Of a stretch of DNA of 9,269 nt, positions 3,576-9,269 are shown piece by piece; the stretch's first letter is position 1, and every line of letters starts with the position of its first letter. Made by a program: the position numbers and the translations under genes. Below the pieces are notes generated by a model. It searched no databases. It was given only the letters and a program-made list of their open reading frames with translations, and was not told where the DNA came from. Source of the stretch: Candidatus Woesearchaeota archaeon (GTDB lineage Archaea > Nanobdellota > Nanobdellia > Woesearchaeales > UBA583); contig SKGP01000031.1 of the NCBI GenBank assembly GCA_007117405.1, forward strand, positions 1 to 9,269, in the 5' to 3' direction.

Positions 3576-3962
3576 TTAATAAATTATTATTTTCAATGAA
3601 TCTATTTTTTTTGATGAAGCAAATTTTTTGTAAAAATCCTTAACATCATTGCTTTTTCCTTTAAAAAGCATAATCTCCATACAATTATGATTTTTTATCT
3701 CGTGATGAATATGAGTTTTGACCAAGTGATGTATTTCATGTTTTATTCTTGCAAACTCATCCGTATCTTGTTCTTTATGAGTTACAATTAAAGTACCTTC
3801 AACCTCCCCATTTATTTCTTCAATCTTCTTGTATTCACTTATTAAGTTTCTAATTCCCGCTCTAACTATTTCAGACCTTCCAGAAAATCCCATTTGCTTT
3901 TGAAGAAAATCCATATCTTCTGCTATTTGCTCATTAATTGAAATTGATACAATTTGTGCCAT
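3576..3962 (-). CDS. nikR: NikR-like metal-responsive ribbon-helix-helix repressor
   Basis: At 128 aa this matches the length and two-domain plan of NikR. Residues 1-45 form the ribbon-helix-helix DNA-binding part (V-S-I-S-I-N strand, then G-F-S-G-R-S-E-I-V-R-A-G-I). Residues about 52-128 form the ACT-like metal-binding and tetramerisation domain, with the conserved C-M-E-I-M-L-F-K-G block. In E. coli NikR nickel is bound by H87, H89 and C95 of one subunit and H76 of another. Keeping the spacing of the family, the equivalents here are H75, H86, E88 and C94, so the second His of HxH is replaced by Glu. Extra histidines (H78, H79, H84, H87, H92) lie close by and could take over. NikR proteins repress nickel uptake genes when metal is plentiful. 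Here the gene is divergent from a metallochaperone/PLP operon, with similar palindromes before both starts, so autoregulation and control of that operon are likely. The actual metal is uncertain. Confidence 0.88.
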   Translation of the reverse strand: MAQIVSISINEQIAEDMDFLQKQMGFSGRSEIVRAGIRNLISEYKKIEEINGEVEGTLIVTHKEQDTDEFARIKHEIHHLVKTHIHHEIKNHNCMEIMLFKGKSNDVKDFYKKFASSKKIDSLKIIIY

Positions 3963-3965
3963 AAT

Positions 3966-3977
3966 TTAACAATGTTA
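3966..3977. promoter_or_regulatory. Candidate NikR-type operator before nikR
   Basis: The core TAACA-A-TGTTA (3967-3977) is an 11-bp palindrome with a single central base. It lies 4-15 nt before the nikR start, between the TATA-like box and the leaderless start, where bound protein would block transcription. It shares TTAACAAT with the palindrome before the divergent operon. Assignment to the NikR-like protein is inference from position. The site does not resemble the spaced GTATGA-type dyad of E. coli. Confidence 0.5.
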
Positions 3978-3984
3978 TTAATAA

Positions 3985-3990
3985 TTTATA
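3985..3990 (-). promoter_or_regulatory. TATA-like box of nikR
   Basis: TATAAA on the minus strand is centred about 25-26 nt before the ATG at 3962. This is the spacing expected if transcription begins at the start codon, giving a leaderless mRNA. No ribosome-binding site is seen before nikR, which agrees. Confidence 0.5.
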
Positions 3991-4020
3991 TGTTTTTTGA
4001 TAAAAGTTATTAACATTAAG

Positions 4021-4029
4021 TTTAAAAAT
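4021..4029 (+). promoter_or_regulatory. TATA-like box of the GTPase/PLP operon
   Basis: TTTAAAAAT is centred about 27 nt before the ATG at 4052, preceded by AAG as a possible purine-rich BRE. The spacing predicts a leaderless transcript; no ribosome-binding site is visible. Confidence 0.5.
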
Positions 4030-4031
4030 TA

Positions 4032-4045
4032 TTAACAATTGTTAA
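4032..4045. promoter_or_regulatory. Perfect 14-bp palindrome, candidate operator of the operon
   Basis: TTAACAATTGTTAA is a perfect inverted repeat lying 7-20 nt before the start codon of the first GTPase gene, just after its TATA-like box. A related TAACA/TGTTA palindrome sits at the matching place before nikR, and a third TTAACA copy lies at 4010-4015. This is the classic position of an archaeal repressor site. Binding by the NikR-like protein is inferred. Confidence 0.55.
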
Positions 4046-4051
4046 CTTTAT

Positions 4052-5287
4052 ATGGAAAATAAGAATGATAAAAAAAAACTCCCAGTCACAGTTTTGTCTG
4101 GATTTTTAGGTTCTGGAAAAACAACTCTCTTAAATCATATATTAAAAAATAGAGAAGGGATGAAAGTCGCAGTAATAGTTAATGATATGTCTGAAATAAA
4201 TATTGACGCTGAACTAATAAAAAATTCAGAAGCTAAGCTTTCAAGAACAGAAGAAAAATTAGTTGAAATGGAAAATGGTTGTATTTGTTGTACCTTAAGA
4301 GAAGACCTGTTAATTGAAATAAAAAAACTTGCTGAAGAAAACAGATTTGATTATCTTGTAATAGAAAGTACTGGAATTTCAGAACCACTTCCAGTTGCAG
4401 AAACATTTACTTTTGAAGATGAGAAAGGAAATTCACTTTCAGATTTTGCAAAACTTGATACAATGGTAACAGTTGTTGATGCATATAATTTCTTTCATGA
4501 TTTTTATTCAAAAGAGTTTTTAAAAGATAGAGGAGAAAGTCTTGGAGAAGAAGATGAAAGAACAATAGCAAATCTCCTAATTGACCAAATTGAATTTTCA
4601 AATGTAATTATATTAAACAAAATATCAATGTTGAAAGAAGAAGAAACAAAAAAAATAAAAGCAATAATAAACAAATTAAATCCTGATGTAAAAATAATTG
4701 AAACTGATTATTCCAAAGTAGATTTAAAAGAAATTATCAATACAAACTTATTTGATTTTGAAAAAGCATCTCAAGCAGCAGGTTGGTTAAAAGAGATGAG
4801 GGGGGAACATATACCTGAAACTGAAGAATATGGAATCTCTTCTTTTGTATTTAAATCAAGAAAACCTTTCCATCCAAAAAGATTAAGAAAAGTTTTTAGT
4901 TCTGAAGAGTTCTCAAAGGTAGTAAGAGCAAAAGGGTATTTTTGGCTTGCCACAAGAAATGAATTTGCTATGACTTTGGCAATTGCTGGAAAAATTATGG
5001 AATACAGTATTGCAGGATACTGGTATGCAACAATGCCTGAAAAAGAGTTAAAAGAAGATAAAGAATTCTGGGAGTATATAAGCCCAATATGGGACAAAAA
5101 ATACGGAGATAGAAGACAAGAACTCGTTTTTATTGGTGTTGGATTTGAAAAAGAAAAAATCATTAAATTATTAAATAATGCCTTATTAACTGATGATGAG
5201 ATGAAATTGGAAATAGAAAAATGGTCTGAATTTGAAGACCCATTTCCACAAATTGAAATTGAACCCATTGAAGAAAAAACAATTTAA
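4052..5287 (+). CDS. COG0523/CobW-type G3E GTPase, probable metallochaperone
   Basis: A full-length 411-aa member of the long COG0523 type. The N-terminal GTPase domain has Walker [10 protein letters not shown] (17-25), the metal-binding C-x-C-C motif as C77-I-C79-C80 after E-x-[11 protein letters not shown] (105-112) and V-V-D-A (141-144). The base-recognition motif is N-K-I-S (189-192) instead of the usual NKxD. The C-terminal CobW_C domain begins near 251 and keeps the F-x-P-x-R-L and [11 protein letters not shown] blocks. Family members use GTP to deliver Zn, Co or another metal to client proteins; ZNG1 and Nha3-type activators are known examples. Zinc-starvation members are often under metal-repressor control. 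It is the first gene of the operon, divergent from the NikR-like regulator and probably read from a leaderless mRNA. Which metal and client it serves is unknown; the downstream enzymes are candidates. Confidence 0.9.
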
Positions 5288-5294
5288 ATAAAAA

Positions 5295-6827
5295 ATGTCT
5301 ATAGAAACAATATTGGTCTCAGGACCGCTAGGATCTGGAAAAACAACTATCATAAAGAATCATTTAATTCCATACTACAAAAAAAAAGGAGTTAAAAATG
5401 AATTAAGTCTTCTTGTTAATGATGCTGCAATTGGTAATAACAAAGGAAATATATTAAATACTGATGGTAGAAGACTTTTAGGAGATTTTGAGAATGAAAA
5501 TATATTAATGTTTGGTCAAACCTGTGTATGTTGCGATGGAATTGAAACATTCAAAAGTGCCCTAGAAGAAAAAATAGACCAATCAAAAACAAAATTTTTA
5601 ATTATAGAACCTACTGGAATTGCCAATCCTAACAATATTGCAGATGCAATAATCGATAAAAAAAACATTAATAAATTCAATCTTAAAAATATAGCCTATC
5701 TGCTTCCAGTAAAAAATTTTAACATAGCTGAAAGTCATTCTGGAATTAAAGCAGCAAATCATGTTATTCTAACTTGGCTGCCAGAACAAGAAAACTATTT
5801 TGAAATAAAAAAAGTCGCAGAATATGCTCTAGAATCAAACCCAGATGCTAACATACATTTTTATGATGAAGATTTCAGTTGGGACATTATTTCAAATTTA
5901 AATGAATGGAATATAGAATCATATCTTTCAAGAAAAGGTTTCTTTCAAAGAAAATTCGTCCCAATTCCAATATCAATTGGAAGTATTCAAAAAGATTCAG
6001 GTAATTCTATGCAAACTCAAAATCATGAAAAATATGAAACTAAATCTTATGAAATAAATCCATATTCTATTGAAGAGGACCCAAAAATTCTTGAAAAAAC
6101 ACTTGAAAAACTTGCAAAATCTGGAATAGAAAGAGCAAAAGGATATATAAGATTAGATGGTGATAGCATTCTTCCATTTGACATAGTAAGAGGCAGATAT
6201 ATTATTGGTGAAAGTGAGAGAGACCAAAGAAGAGTTTATGGAAATGGTTCTCTAGAAATAATTAGTAAAAATATTCCAAAAAATATTGATGAGACAATTA
6301 AAGATTTAACAGAAGGTGCAGGAGATGCTGTTGCAATAAAAGGTACATCTCTTGAAGAAAAATTAGAATTATTAAAACATTATGATAATCTGATTGAGAC
6401 CTCAATTCCAGAAAATGGATTTATAAGTCAAACCTATGAAGGTGCAGATATAGCTTTTACTCTTGCCGAACAAATAAAAAGAGAACACAATTACTCTAAT
6501 TCAATTAGAGATATATTTCCAAGATACATGGAGATACACAAACAAGCAATAACTTCACTCAAAGAAAGCAACCAAGAAAACAAAAATTACATTCAATCAA
6601 TGTTTGGGTTAAAAGTATTATATGCGTGGGATACATACAAAGAAAATCTTCCCAAAAGTATTATTCCAGATATAAAATATATTGCAAGAGAATTTATAAC
6701 TGCAAAGTCCAAACTTGGGGATATTGAATATGGGTTTATTCAAAAAGGTTCAAATCCACAAGATTATATAGACTATCTTCAAAAAATGGAAAAAGTAGCT
6801 ACAAATATATTGGGTGATTCAAAATGA
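5295..6827 (+). CDS. Divergent G3E/CobW-like P-loop NTPase with long C-terminal extension
   Basis: This 510-aa protein keeps G3E hallmarks: Walker A G-P-L-G-S-G-K-T-T (10-18), V-N-D (41-43), C77-V-C79-C80, and E105-P-T-G-I-A-N-P. The CxCC and E-x-T-G motifs fall at exactly the same residue numbers as in the preceding GTPase, so the two share a fold and possibly a duplication origin. Where NKxD is expected (about 156-163) it reads H-V-I-L-T-W-L-P, so GTP specificity is doubtful. A CobW_C-like stretch with I-E-R-A-K-G-Y-I-R-L-D-G lies at 278-289. From about 335 to 510 there is a mostly helical region I do not recognise, containing E-G-A-G-D-A-V-A-I-K-G and many aromatic and charged residues. 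It starts 7 nt after the previous stop and overlaps the next gene by ATGA. It is probably a specialised metal-transfer partner; client and metal are unknown. Confidence 0.8.
   Translation: MSIETILVSGPLGSGKTTIIKNHLIPYYKKKGVKNELSLLVNDAAIGNNKGNILNTDGRRLLGDFENENILMFGQTCVCCDGIETFKSALEEKIDQSKTKFLIIEPTGIANPNNIADAIIDKKNINKFNLKNIAYLLPVKNFNIAESHSGIKAANHVILTWLPEQENYFEIKKVAEYALESNPDANIHFYDEDFSWDIISNLNEWNIESYLSRKGFFQRKFVPIPISIGSIQKDSGNSMQTQNHEKYETKSYEINPYSIEEDPKILEKTLEKLAKSGIERAKGYIRLDGDSILPFDIVRGRYIIGESERDQRRVYGNGSLEIISKNIPKNIDETIKDLTEGAGDAVAIKGTSLEEKLELLKHYDNLIETSIPENGFISQTYEGADIAFTLAEQIKREHNYSNSIRDIFPRYMEIHKQAITSLKESNQENKNYIQSMFGLKVLYAWDTYKENLPKSIIPDIKYIAREFITAKSKLGDIEYGFIQKGSNPQDYIDYLQKMEKVATNILGDSK
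6813..6818 (+). promoter_or_regulatory. Ribosome-binding site GGTGAT before the CooC-like gene
   Basis: GGTGAT, complementary to the conserved 16S rRNA 3' end, lies 5 nt before ATG 6824 and inside the end of the upstream gene. It supports that start and coupled translation. Confidence 0.6.
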
Positions 6828-7768
6828 AAATTTCTTTTTTAGGAAAAGGTGGAAGTGGAAAAACAACAATCTCTGGGGCATTTATCAGGTGGTTATCTGA
6901 AAAAAGTGAAGTTATAGCAATTGATGCTGACTTAAATGTTCATCTGCAAAATACCCTTGGAATTGAAGGAGACCTAATAGAAATCTCAGAAAGAATAAAT
7001 GAGATAAAAGACTACTTAAGAGGAAATAGGAATGATATAACAAATGATGATTTTCTCTCAACAACACCTCCATCAAAAAAATCAAGATTTATTAAACCAA
7101 CAAAAAACGACCCTTTTATAAAAAAATTTTCTATTCAAAAAGGAAACATATCTTTTATGAAAGTTGGAAGTTATAATAATGAAGATATTGGCCACAATTG
7201 CTATCATAGCAAACTTGGAAGTCTTGAACATATATTTCACCATATGCTTGATGAAAAAAATGATTATGTAATCTCAGATGCAACCGCAGGAGTAGACAAT
7301 CTAGGGACTTCTCTTTTTTATTCCTACGATATAAATTTCTTTGTTGTTGAACCTACCGAAAAATCTGCAAGTGTTTTTTTAGATTTCTTAAAACATTGTG
7401 AAGAAAAAAAAGTTAAGGTGTATGCTATTGGAAATAAAATAGAAGATGAAGAGGACTTAGAATTTCTCAAAAACAAAATAGGAGAAAAAAGTATTCTAAC
7501 TTGGATTCCATACGAAAAATCAATTCGAAAATTCGAACAAGGTGATAATGATTCAATGAATAATTTTATTGAAAAAAACAAAGAAAAATTTTCTTTAATA
7601 AAAGAAAAAATAGACTCTATTGAAAAAGATTGGAAAAAATATCACTCAAATCTTGTAAATGCACACAAAGAAGGTTGCCAGTCCTGGTGGAATGATTATT
7701 ATAAAAAAGATTTAGCCTCCATTGTCGATTATACTTTCAGTTATGAAGATACAATTAAAAAAAAATGA
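6824..7768 (+). CDS. CooC/MinD-type P-loop ATPase (SIMIBI class)
   Basis: A 314-aa ATPase of the deviant Walker A type: G-K-G-G-S-G-K-T-T (7-15) with the signature lysine K8, I-D-A-D (33-36) for switch I, S-D-A-T-A-G (151-156) for the Walker B/switch II region, and N204-K205 for adenine contact. These are the marks of CooC, MinD, NifH and ArsA relatives, which work as nucleotide-switched dimers. Among them CooC inserts nickel into carbon monoxide dehydrogenase, and the metal-linked neighbours here make a CooC-like role more likely than cell division or plasmid partition. Unusual parts are an H-N-C-Y-H cluster (124-128) and a basic and aromatic tail (about 255-314) with H-K-E-G-C-Q-S-W-W. Either could bind metal. 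It overlaps both flanking genes by ATGA. Function in metal insertion is inference; the ATPase class is clear. Confidence 0.8.
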   Translation: MKISFLGKGGSGKTTISGAFIRWLSEKSEVIAIDADLNVHLQNTLGIEGDLIEISERINEIKDYLRGNRNDITNDDFLSTTPPSKKSRFIKPTKNDPFIKKFSIQKGNISFMKVGSYNNEDIGHNCYHSKLGSLEHIFHHMLDEKNDYVISDATAGVDNLGTSLFYSYDINFFVVEPTEKSASVFLDFLKHCEEKKVKVYAIGNKIEDEEDLEFLKNKIGEKSILTWIPYEKSIRKFEQGDNDSMNNFIEKNKEKFSLIKEKIDSIEKDWKKYHSNLVNAHKEGCQSWWNDYYKKDLASIVDYTFSYEDTIKKK

Positions 7769-9195
7769 ATATAGAAGCAAAAAGAAGTAATATTACAGAT
7801 GAAATATTGAACAAAAACCAAGACATGCTCTTTCAAGCAAAAATGCTACACAAAGGCCCGGTACATCTTCTTTTTCCTCAAGAAATGATAGAAAACATAA
7901 AAAAAATTAAAAAGATTTTTATAGATACAGAACTTGAAATAAAAATATTTTTTGCATATAAATCCAATTCAAAAATTCCTTTTGCAAAACAAGCAAAAAA
8001 AGAGGGTATATTCATTGATGTAGCGTCAGAAAATGAGCTTTCATCTGCCCTTTCTGCAGGATTTATTGGAAGTGAGATAGAATGTACTGGACCAAAAAAT
8101 AACTCTTTTTTAACTCTTGCTATTCATCATCAATGCTTAATTAGTGTAGATTCTTTAGAAGAAATTAAATCCATTTCTAAATTAACAGAACAAATTGGAA
8201 AAAAAGTTGAAATTCTTATAAGACTCAATGACCTTGAAAGCAAAGATAGAAATATCCTAATAAAAAGAAGTAGATTTGGAATCTCAAAAAATGATTTAGA
8301 AAAAGCCTATAACATTTTGAAGAAAAGTAATTGGATAAATCTAAAAGGATTTCATTTCCATTCAGATGGATATGACATAGAAACAAAATCTGGTTTTTTA
8401 AGTGAAATGATTGAAATAACACAAAGAGCTTGGAAAGATGAAGGACTAAGTCCAACAATATTGAATATGGGTGGAAGTTGGAGAAATCCAATTCTAAAAA
8501 ATTCAAAAAACTGGTCCAAATTTATAGAAAAAATGGGAGAGGAAATAATAAAAGGAAAAAATACTCTTGTTTGGGGAAATAATTTTTATGGTATGAAAAA
8601 AAATGAAAGAGGGAGAATATCTGGAAGAGAAAACGCTATTATGAAAAGTTATGAATCAAATATAGAAAAAGATTTGAAAAATCTTGTTTCAAACGATTCT
8701 CTGCTTGGAAGAAAAATCTCCTCAATTATAAATGAAAATATGTTTGAACTTGCAATTGAACCTGGTTTCTCTCTTTTAGATGGATGTGCTATGACAATAA
8801 CTGAAATAGCTGACGTAAAGAAAAGCGATAAAGATGTTTATCATATTGTAATAGATGCTAACATATATAACCTTTCAACAGCAAAAATGTTTGAAATTAT
8901 TGCAGACCCAGTACTAGTAAAACCAACAAATAATAAAAATAATAAAAAATGTGAGGCTTTTATTTTTGGAAATTTATGTACAGAAGATGATGTAATAATA
9001 AAAAGAAAAATCTTTCTTGATAAAATCCCAGAAAAAGGCGACTTAATCTGCTTTTTAAATACTGCGGCATACAACACAAATTTTGAAGATGCAAGTCCCA
9101 TACTTCACGAAAAAGGAAAGTCTTTCTGTATTGTTAAAAAAAACAATAAATTCCTTCTTATTGATGAAAAAAAATACAACCCTTATGAAAAATGA
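7765..9195 (+). CDS. Fold-III PLP-dependent decarboxylase-like enzyme, Y4yA type
   Basis: This 476-aa enzyme has the alanine-racemase/ornithine-diaminopimelate decarboxylase plan: an N-terminal TIM barrel and a C-terminal beta domain. The PLP lysine is K66 in F-F-A-Y-K-S-N-S. Other marks are R-F-G-I-S (180-184), G-F-H-F-H-S-D (205-211), the phosphate-binding N-M-G-G-S-W (234-239), E-P-G-F (332-335, usually EPGR), the catalytic-cysteine block G-N-L-C405-T-E-D-D, and A-Y-N-T-N-F near 435. The G-P-V-H-L-L-F-P-Q opening and the long insert after GGSW (about 245-310) resemble the Y4yA group rather than LysA or ornithine decarboxylase. Substrate is unknown; decarboxylation or racemisation of an amino acid or amino-acid conjugate is expected. 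Diaminopimelate decarboxylation for lysine synthesis is the alternative, but no other lysine genes are visible. The start overlaps the upstream stop, and the stop overlaps the next start, both by ATGA. Confidence 0.85.
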   Translation: MNIEAKRSNITDEILNKNQDMLFQAKMLHKGPVHLLFPQEMIENIKKIKKIFIDTELEIKIFFAYKSNSKIPFAKQAKKEGIFIDVASENELSSALSAGFIGSEIECTGPKNNSFLTLAIHHQCLISVDSLEEIKSISKLTEQIGKKVEILIRLNDLESKDRNILIKRSRFGISKNDLEKAYNILKKSNWINLKGFHFHSDGYDIETKSGFLSEMIEITQRAWKDEGLSPTILNMGGSWRNPILKNSKNWSKFIEKMGEEIIKGKNTLVWGNNFYGMKKNERGRISGRENAIMKSYESNIEKDLKNLVSNDSLLGRKISSIINENMFELAIEPGFSLLDGCAMTITEIADVKKSDKDVYHIVIDANIYNLSTAKMFEIIADPVLVKPTNNKNNKKCEAFIFGNLCTEDDVIIKRKIFLDKIPEKGDLICFLNTAAYNTNFEDASPILHEKGKSFCIVKKNNKFLLIDEKKYNPYEK

Positions 9196-9269
9196 TTATA
9201 ACCAGTATAAAAGAACTAATAGGAAATACACCAATATTAAAACTCGACTCAAAAGTCCATAAATTAAAA
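9192..9269 (+). CDS. Cysteine-synthase-like fold-II PLP enzyme, N-terminus only (3' partial)
   Basis: The ATG at 9192 overlaps the previous TGA (ATGA) and opens 26 codons up to the window edge. The start reads M-I-I-T-S-I-K-E-L-I-G-N-T-P-I-L-K-L. The S-I-x-x-L-I-G-N-T-P-x-x-x-L pattern is the conserved N-terminus of the cysteine synthase/cystathionine beta-synthase family, which includes CysK, CysM and SbnA. These enzymes carry out beta-replacement on O-acetyl- or O-phosphoserine. The PLP lysine and substrate loop lie outside the window, so the reaction cannot be assigned. Its pairing with a decarboxylase in a metal-regulated operon favours a biosynthetic role such as diaminopropionate formation, as in SbnA, over plain cysteine synthesis. 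That is inference. Confidence 0.8.
   Translation, partial: MIITSIKELIGNTPILKLDSKVHKLK

Follow-up and report, generated by a model that had tools for sequence, protein, structure and literature searches.

We analyzed a 9,269-nucleotide stretch of DNA from a Candidatus Woesearchaeota archaeon (contig SKGP01000031.1; hereafter, the window), in which a run of five genes stands divergent from a gene for a NikR-like regulator. The run encodes a ZigA-type COG0523 GTPase, a 510-aa G3E-type nucleoside triphosphatase (NTPase), a CooC-like ATPase, a Y4yA-type decarboxylase dependent on pyridoxal 5'-phosphate (PLP), and a CysK-like PLP enzyme fused to a rhodanese domain. We tentatively favor the hypothesis, at a little under an even chance, that this is a zinc-shortage operon whose product is a small zinc ligand derived from amino acids, of the aspergillomarasmine or ethylenediamine disuccinate (EDDS) kind, and handled by dedicated NTPases. 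The strongest new clue for a ligand was the architecture of the CysK-rhodanese fusion, which resembles that of aspergillomarasmine A (AMA) synthetase. In the open-access literature searched, we recognized no paper describing this gene set.

The regulator and the five genes were found as an earlier note on this DNA had described them, each with a signal of its family (Table 1). Four genes were complete, and the fifth, truncated by the right edge of the window, had only begun. ATGA overlaps linked genes 2 to 5 (6824-6827, 7765-7768 and 9192-9195), as the earlier note had reported, and a gap of 7 bp separated the ZigA-type gene from the 510-aa G3E gene. The genome of the window (G000) comprises 502 kb in 94 contigs and is 71.5% complete. 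The end of the contig bearing the run (C93) and contig C21 share a 52-bp overlap (94% identity), across which the reading frame is continuous. The join is probable on sequence grounds rather than proven because the overlap contains 3 mismatches; it is strengthened because the same kind of gene directly follows the Y4yA gene in two other archaeal genomes. Beyond the join, C21 carries the CysK-rhodanese gene, a 303-aa lipoprotein-looking open reading frame (ORF), and then genes read manually as ribosomal proteins L1, L10 and L12; therefore, CysK-rhodanese is probably the last gene of the operon. Downstream genes for ordinary lysine or cysteine biosynthesis, which by the earlier note would have refuted its proposal, were not what this reading gave.

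Table 1. Features of the regulator-operon region in the window.
Feature	Position	Strand	Basis
NikR-like ribbon-helix-helix regulator, 128 aa	3576..3962	-	Pfam NikR_C, alignment to 2bj1
Intergenic region, 89 bp, common to NikR-like gene and operon	3963..4051	.	Four TTATTAAY sites
COG0523 GTPase, ZigA type, 411 aa	4052..5287	+	NF038288, Pfam cobW + CobW_C
G3E-type NTPase, 510 aa	5295..6827	+	Pfam cobW, YjiA-like fold prediction
CooC-like P-loop ATPase, 314 aa	6824..7768	+	Match to PDB CooC 3kje
Y4yA-type fold-III PLP decarboxylase, 476 aa	7765..9195	+	Pfam Orn_Arg_deC_N + Orn_DAP_Arg_deC
CysK-like + rhodanese fusion, start only	9192..9269	+	Probable continuation at L005:2-1306 (contig C21)

The fusion encoded on C21 matched Pfam PALP with 155 bits and, at its C-terminus, Rhodanese with 63 bits. 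Among the best 60 of 126 PDB matches, the chains aligning past the CysK domain into the rhodanese domain were 8h4h and 8h4q, which are titled as apo AMA synthetase and as its biosynthesis complex with O-phosphoserine (OPS), respectively; AMA synthetase was the sole solved CysK-rhodanese fusion among these 60. According to the excerpt of PMC12751119, AMA synthase condenses OPS with L-aspartate, whereas Fda4 of Fusarium poae, also a PLP enzyme with a rhodanese-like domain, couples OPS to L-alanine and not to aspartate or glutamate; marasmins chelate metal. The shared architecture suggests that the fusion of the operon may likewise perform OPS-dependent coupling to an amino acid. Unlike AMA synthetase, the prokaryotic family has a conserved insert, present near LPGLSxCPDPxDPNDP in most members, and is accompanied by a decarboxylase, a CooC-like ATPase and metal-type neighbors; the fusion of the operon is also nearer in sequence to ordinary CysM/CysK.

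We consider the operon to be more than chance because its core genes recur together elsewhere. The core trio was defined as the CooC-like, Y4yA and CysK-rhodanese genes, and all locus searches were seeded from CooC. The count covered 88 CooC-type loci: 5 from archaea, the 80 best of 434 genome-collection relatives, and those of G618, G554 and G810, with the rumen metagenome-assembled genome RUI239 counted once. The trio was present in 12 of these loci (3 in archaea, 7 among the 80 from the collection, and those of G618 and G554); as the Obscuribacterales loci are closely related, the independent lineages are fewer than 12. In 11 of the 12, counting the window by way of the probable join, all three genes lay on the same strand in the order CooC, Y4yA, CysK-rhodanese; in L026, CooC was divergent.

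An order-wide search with CooC at 1e-30 returned 5 of 352 genomes, with strong matches in G000, the congener G003 and G328 of another family (E below 1e-117). By manual reading, the other two matches (3e-35; G005 and G101) were unlike and lacked the trio, and that of G101 adjoined a CO dehydrogenase (CODH) gene. Starting from a divergent NikR-like gene, the G003 operon (L016) contained a major facilitator superfamily (MFS) gene, ZigA, a 207-aa ORF, a 493-aa G3E gene, the CooC-like, Y4yA and CysK-rhodanese genes, and a ParB-like gene; they were assigned by match to window genes or Pfam, and the 207-aa ORF had no match. Identity with the window was 58% for NikR, 44% for CooC, 41% for CysK-rhodanese, 35% for Y4yA and 26% for G3E, and was 85% over the N-part and 57% over the C-part of ZigA. 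The G003 ZigA-like gene (L016 9079-10325) was broken by frame changes in the assembly. In G328, the G3E, CooC, Y4yA and CysK-rhodanese genes were consecutive, with NikR and ZigA not adjoining. A membrane protein of about 200 aa, which had no Pfam match, directly followed CysK-rhodanese there (L109 12999-13601); it could belong to a transporter that moves the product.

Among the best 80 of 434 CooC relatives in the genome collection, the 10 closest shared 39-45% identity with the window protein, and 7 of them stood with Y4yA and CysK-rhodanese genes (six of Obscuribacterales type and RUI239); none of the remaining 70 (32-37% identity) had either gene in the DNA examined. In the class of RUI239, 4 of 385 genomes gave CooC matches at 1e-60, and the trio was found in RUI239, G618 and G554 and not in G810. 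The CooC proteins of G618, G554 and G810 were 31-33% identical to that of the window, i.e., no closer than the 70 without the trio. CysK-rhodanese identity between archaea and bacteria was 38-46%, and 35-43% for L134 and L135. A Fur-family gene was located directly upstream of the RUI239 block, and Fur-like ORFs were read manually in four Obscuribacterales clusters. The short contig L135 (G554) carried, in order, a Zur-like gene, a 234-aa ORF, the trio and ZigA; the Zur-like gene scored 108.6 bits against a cut-off of 167, and ZigA, which the contig end cuts off after 47 residues, scored 94.6 bits over that part. Proteins of 215-234 aa lay directly upstream of CooC in L135 (4029-4733) and L134 (8905-9552); they were alike by eye and had no Pfam or NCBIfam match. 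The Obscuribacter cluster was long and tightly packed, with two CYH-CooC genes (L023 1284-12503 and L115 7319-11482). It contained Asp/Asn beta-hydroxylase, SufS-like, amine-oxidase-like, borderline GNAT and methyltransferase-like ORFs, with MFS/BT1 on the other strand, and is a candidate natural-product locus.

The catalytic residues of both PLP enzymes were intact. In the Y4yA-type enzyme, K66, C405, D409 and EPG were kept in all 12 module members, where we take K66 to be the PLP lysine and C405 the C-terminal active-site Cys of fold-III decarboxylases. K35 of CysK, its PLP lysine, and C392 of rhodanese (numbered on the C21 fragment) were also invariant in 12 of 12. LysA was considered and rejected as the identity of the decarboxylase, which missed the TIGR01048 cut-off (135 vs 298 bits). 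As in the operon, Y4yA and CysK-like genes stand together in Y4yA clusters of Rhizobiaceae and Mycobacterium avium plasmids, with a ParB-like gene in 2 of the 3 stretches. However, Y4yA identity was 24-31% and CysK identity 23-33%, and CysK of NGR234 and M. avium aligned without a rhodanese domain. An opine dehydrogenase gene or an ornithine cyclodeaminase gene also occurs in these clusters, NGR234 additionally has IucA/IucC, and the stretches examined carry no gene annotated as CooC or G3E. Sinorhizobium fredii NGR234 (L022 9522-16567) had ParB-like, Y4yA, CysK-like, opine dehydrogenase, IucA/IucC and MFS genes; the M. avium plasmid (L021 7178-12669) had CysK-like, ornithine cyclodeaminase, Y4yA and multidrug and toxic compound extrusion (MATE) genes; and the Agrobacterium plasmid (L020 10491-14117) had ParB-like, ornithine cyclodeaminase, Y4yA and CysK-like genes. 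All three look like related metallophore pathways.

For the substrates, product, direction of transport and NTPase roles, we infer the following scheme. The starting OPS might come from a SerK/SbnI-like protein such as the one weakly matched in the congener operon. The CysK-rhodanese enzyme would attach the serine-derived part to the amino group of, e.g., aspartate or another amino acid, as AMA synthetase does, and the Y4yA-type enzyme, in the manner of SbnH, would decarboxylate the conjugate to an ethylenediamine-like chelator. A transporter (MFS in the congener) could move the chelator, the CooC-like ATPase, the 510-aa G3E protein and ZigA may load, unload or deliver zinc, and under metal-replete conditions the NikR-like protein would act as a repressor of the operon. 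In the staphyloferrin B pathway, a residue derived from diaminopropionate is decarboxylated by SbnH (excerpt of PMC3179956), and SerK, a ParB-annotated protein, makes OPS for cysteine in Thermococcus (excerpt of PMC5120207). The ParB-like protein of G003 (L016:2673-3065) matched SerK at 1.3e-11 and SbnI at 5.7e-7, both below cut-off; it failed NF053625 (44 vs 380 bits) and NF033589 (29 vs 350 bits).

Like the staphyloferrin B module (SbnA/SbnH/SbnI), the operon pairs a CysK-like enzyme with a fold-III decarboxylase, and the G003 version adds a ParB-like protein. In contrast to staphyloferrin B, neither an SbnB-type dehydrogenase nor a nonribosomal peptide synthetase (NRPS)-independent siderophore (NIS) synthetase was recognized among the operon genes, those of G003 included; CysK carries a rhodanese domain, the SbnA and SbnI cut-offs were missed, and the neighbors are of zinc type. 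Amycolatopsis japonicum makes the metal chelator EDDS under the control of Zur (excerpt of PMC6103462); the likeness lies in a metal-controlled route to an ethylenediamine chelator rather than in compared gene sets. Thus, we liken the operon to a staphyloferrin-, EDDS- or AMA-type pathway in its working and make a limited claim to membership in these systems, because the SbnA, SerK/SbnI, LysA and NikR cut-offs were missed and NIS and SbnB genes were not recognized.

CooC and G3E proteins act in metallocenter assembly, and the canonical metal motif of CooC, the nickel ATPase of CODH, is CxC. The CooC-like protein of the operon belongs to the same P-loop family and matched CooC 3kje with an E-value of 2e-11; unlike CooC, it reads CYH. 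Its C126 and H128 were invariant in a 24-row alignment, and the motif was CYH in 11 of 12 module members and CFH in 1 of 12. Each of the 23 CooC-like proteins in the tree set had either CYH or CFH, distant paralogues included; therefore, the motif marks a wider family and not the module alone. The CODH-linked CooC-type protein of G101 reads CFC. A canonical CooC/CODH link was rejected for the operon's protein on the CYH motif and the absence of a CODH match in the three archaeal carriers: PF03063 had no match in G000 (71% complete), G003, G328 or G352, and matched in G101 and G353. A NiFe hydrogenase match was present in one of the three carriers, and not in G000 or G003. As an alternative, the earlier note had proposed that metal is delivered to the PLP enzymes or to some metalloenzyme downstream, and NTPase metallochaperones do serve metallocenter assembly (excerpt of PMC9164220). 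However, with no CODH match and one hydrogenase match among the carriers, the three NTPases are very unlikely to insert metal into a PLP enzyme or a metalloenzyme elsewhere. To our knowledge, PLP enzymes of these folds need no metal center.

The CooC-like family numbered 2543 proteins at E <= 0.001, that of the window included. In the CooC tree, the three archaeal copies were not grouped, a pattern consistent with horizontal transfer; support in that region was low. A tblastn search of plasmids with CooC found 2 records, from Nonomuraea and Acetoanaerobium, and the 56 pattern matches of viral contigs to the CooC alignment included no relative. Distant CYH-CooC paralogues of actinobacteria and Ktedonobacteria (L036 10001-11563, L044, L065, L096) were followed by a small conserved ORF reading MSLDVS or MSLNVS, presumably the SCO5389 family; loci L033-L102 were inspected singly for this ORF in part. 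In Ktedonobacter racemifer, a ZnuA-like ORF was located immediately upstream. These paralogues perhaps represent another zinc role of the same ATPase family.

The 510-aa protein matched Pfam cobW with 68 bits and has a CVCC motif in a YjiA-like core; the NKxD position was not conserved by manual reading of the alignment. Its AlphaFold2 model (predicted local distance difference test, pLDDT, 81) best matched YjiA in Foldseek (E 6e-10); YjiA and the COG0523 zinc GTPases (ZigA) are its nearest known counterparts. Unlike YjiA and ZigA, it has an added C-terminal helical region, and its CxCC motif, kept as CVCC in relatives P0002-P0005, P0126 and P0127, was lost in the G003 and G328 versions. The family comprised at least 5 proteins, itself included, among 7995 candidates scored; two of its relatives carry the name Candidatus Woesearchaeota, and P0126 is a distant 505-aa relative from the Gracilibacteria genome GN02-872. 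A G3E profile at 1e-20 matched 4 of 371 genomes in a phylum sample, namely G000, G003, G328 and, weakly and COG0523-like, G025; in the order-wide and phylum samples, the CooC-like and G3E families were thus carried by the same three genomes. No G3E protein of the 510-aa type turned up in the bacterial loci examined, and tblastn of plasmids with it gave no match. We also considered a bolder form of the hypothesis, which we judge unlikely, in which a new kind of zinc-delivery system, common to DPANN archaea and unrelated bacteria, uses a dedicated family of CYH CooC-like ATPases, with ATP, to drive zinc onto or off a purpose-made intracellular ligand. The ligand would be built by the AMA-synthetase-like CysK-rhodanese enzyme and trimmed by the Y4yA decarboxylase, with the 510-aa G3E protein as the archaeal partner.

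Zinc rather than nickel was favored as the metal, which we infer from the neighboring genes. The COG0523 GTPase passed the curated ZigA cut-off (NF038288, 628 vs 600 bits), with the CxCC motif present as CICC and CobW_C at 73.8 vs 22 bits. Two hints came from elsewhere: Zur-like and ZigA genes flank the core block in L135, and in G328 a NikR-family gene is divergent from ZnuA and ORFs read as ZnuC and ZnuB. A ZnuA match was missing from the operon-bearing G000 and G003, whereas G004 and G005 had a ZnuA match and no NikR match. This contrast among congeners is weak evidence for zinc because two genomes stand on each side, the G000 assembly is incomplete, neither match was present in G001 or G002, and G328 has ZnuA alongside the module. 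In G004, which lacks the operon, a zinc-type region (L015 4490-11383) contained ZnuA, transporter-like ORFs, a Fur-like ORF and two COG0523 genes.

The NikR-like protein exceeded the Pfam NikR_C threshold (44.4 vs 22 bits), was slightly under that of RHH_1 (17.8 vs 20.5 bits), and failed the NCBIfam NikR cut-offs (46-71 vs 83-175 bits). We take the nickel ligands of NikR to be H76, H87, H89 and C95. In a manual reading of the alignment to Pyrococcus horikoshii NikR (2bj1), positions 76, 87 and 95 were kept and His89 was replaced by Glu, as in the NikR-like protein of G003. If the operon made a nickelophore or handled nickel under a genuine NikR, the NikR_C match and three of the four ligand positions would fit; however, the change of His89 to Glu, the missed family cut-offs, the ZigA and Zur-like neighbors and the absence of NiFe hydrogenase and CODH matches from G000 and G003 make this highly improbable. 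We retain the suggestion of the earlier note that a metal ligand is made together with proteins that load or handle it, for which the AMA synthetase architecture, the weak SerK/SbnI match and the MFS gene of the congener speak; nickel as its metal is not supported. The sequence TTATTAAY occurred at 10 sites in three intergenic regions of the window and G003 against 1.1 expected, and 0 of 2000 shuffles reached 10, a test biased by our picking the motif by eye after inspection. These intergenic clusters were the densest of both loci, and the region between regulator and operon is a candidate operator of the NikR-like protein, judging from its sequence. Two TTATTAAY sites were also located beside znuA in G004, a genome without a NikR match.

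Several observations weigh against the proposed zinc-ligand operon. The AMA synthetase chains scored under ordinary CysM (81 vs 113 bits); the fusion missed the SbnA cut-off (TIGR03945, 122 vs 350 bits) and scored higher as a generic cysteine synthase; and its AlphaFold model was weak (pLDDT 67) and usable for domain order only. Sub-cut-off SerK matches were also present in 5 of 14 control genomes, and the SerK model had no match in G000 (incomplete), G328 or G353; therefore, the OPS supply step is weak. The window contained no transporter gene, and family searches returned no match for an Obscuribacter ParB-like ORF in which a DGNHR motif was spotted by eye. G328 holds ZnuA as well as the module, which is therefore no simple ZnuABC replacement, and its NikR (45 bits) was no closer to that of the window than P. 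horikoshii NikR (47 bits). Finally, 76 of the 88 CooC-type loci lacked the trio partners. The co-occurrence that the earlier note had expected of the whole set extended to the trio in archaea and bacteria, and the full five-gene set with NikR was seen in this genus only (the window and G003). Together with the rarity of the 510-aa family, the last two points would suit a loose operon of metal and amino-acid genes with no joint pathway; nevertheless, the core trio adjoins in archaea and several bacterial groups, and we regard such an assemblage as the least probable explanation.

A further point against the zinc-ligand operon is that a class-V PLP enzyme stood beside CysK-rhodanese in seven bacterial clusters, being SufS-like by family search in L023 and L032 and by manual reading in five more, which is consistent with sulfur transfer to the rhodanese domain. 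We therefore weighed a sulfur route, in which the fusion takes sulfane sulfur, supplied in some bacteria by a SufS-like enzyme, to form cysteine or a thiol amino acid, and the Y4yA-type enzyme decarboxylates this to a cysteamine-like zinc-binding thiol. The SufS-like neighbors in Obscuribacterales loci and RUI239 are the main fact for it, and the invariant rhodanese Cys and the use of SerK-made OPS for cysteine in Thermococcus agree with it. However, no SufS-like gene was recognized in the archaeal operons, L134 or L135, the last being a short contig, and the characterized relatives couple OPS to amino-acid amines (excerpt of PMC12751119). We consider this route doubtful, while giving it real weight.

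If the zinc-ligand hypothesis is correct, small-genome archaea of this group produce a tailored zinc ligand from a small enzyme set, with no NRPS or NIS synthetase in the operon, and the core of the ligand pathway is common to these archaea and bacteria. It would also give a role to members of the large CooC-like family and tie organic zinc ligands to NTPase metallochaperones, many of which are without known clients. The link of a metallophore-type pathway to the CooC-like ATPase family is new to us. An AMA-synthetase-like architecture, characterized only in fungi among the enzymes we met, is thereby placed in prokaryotic metal-response loci.

In the remainder of the window, an Rfam scan gave 0 matches at the gathering score, and a PHROGs search with three flanking ORFs gave 0 matches. 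The minus strand at 485-2973 carries two overlapping genes with no Pfam or PHROG match: one encodes 617 aa, with membrane segments recognized by eye, and the other 212 aa. At 3-482, the window begins with the open-ended C-terminal part of a RecJ/DHHA1 family protein.

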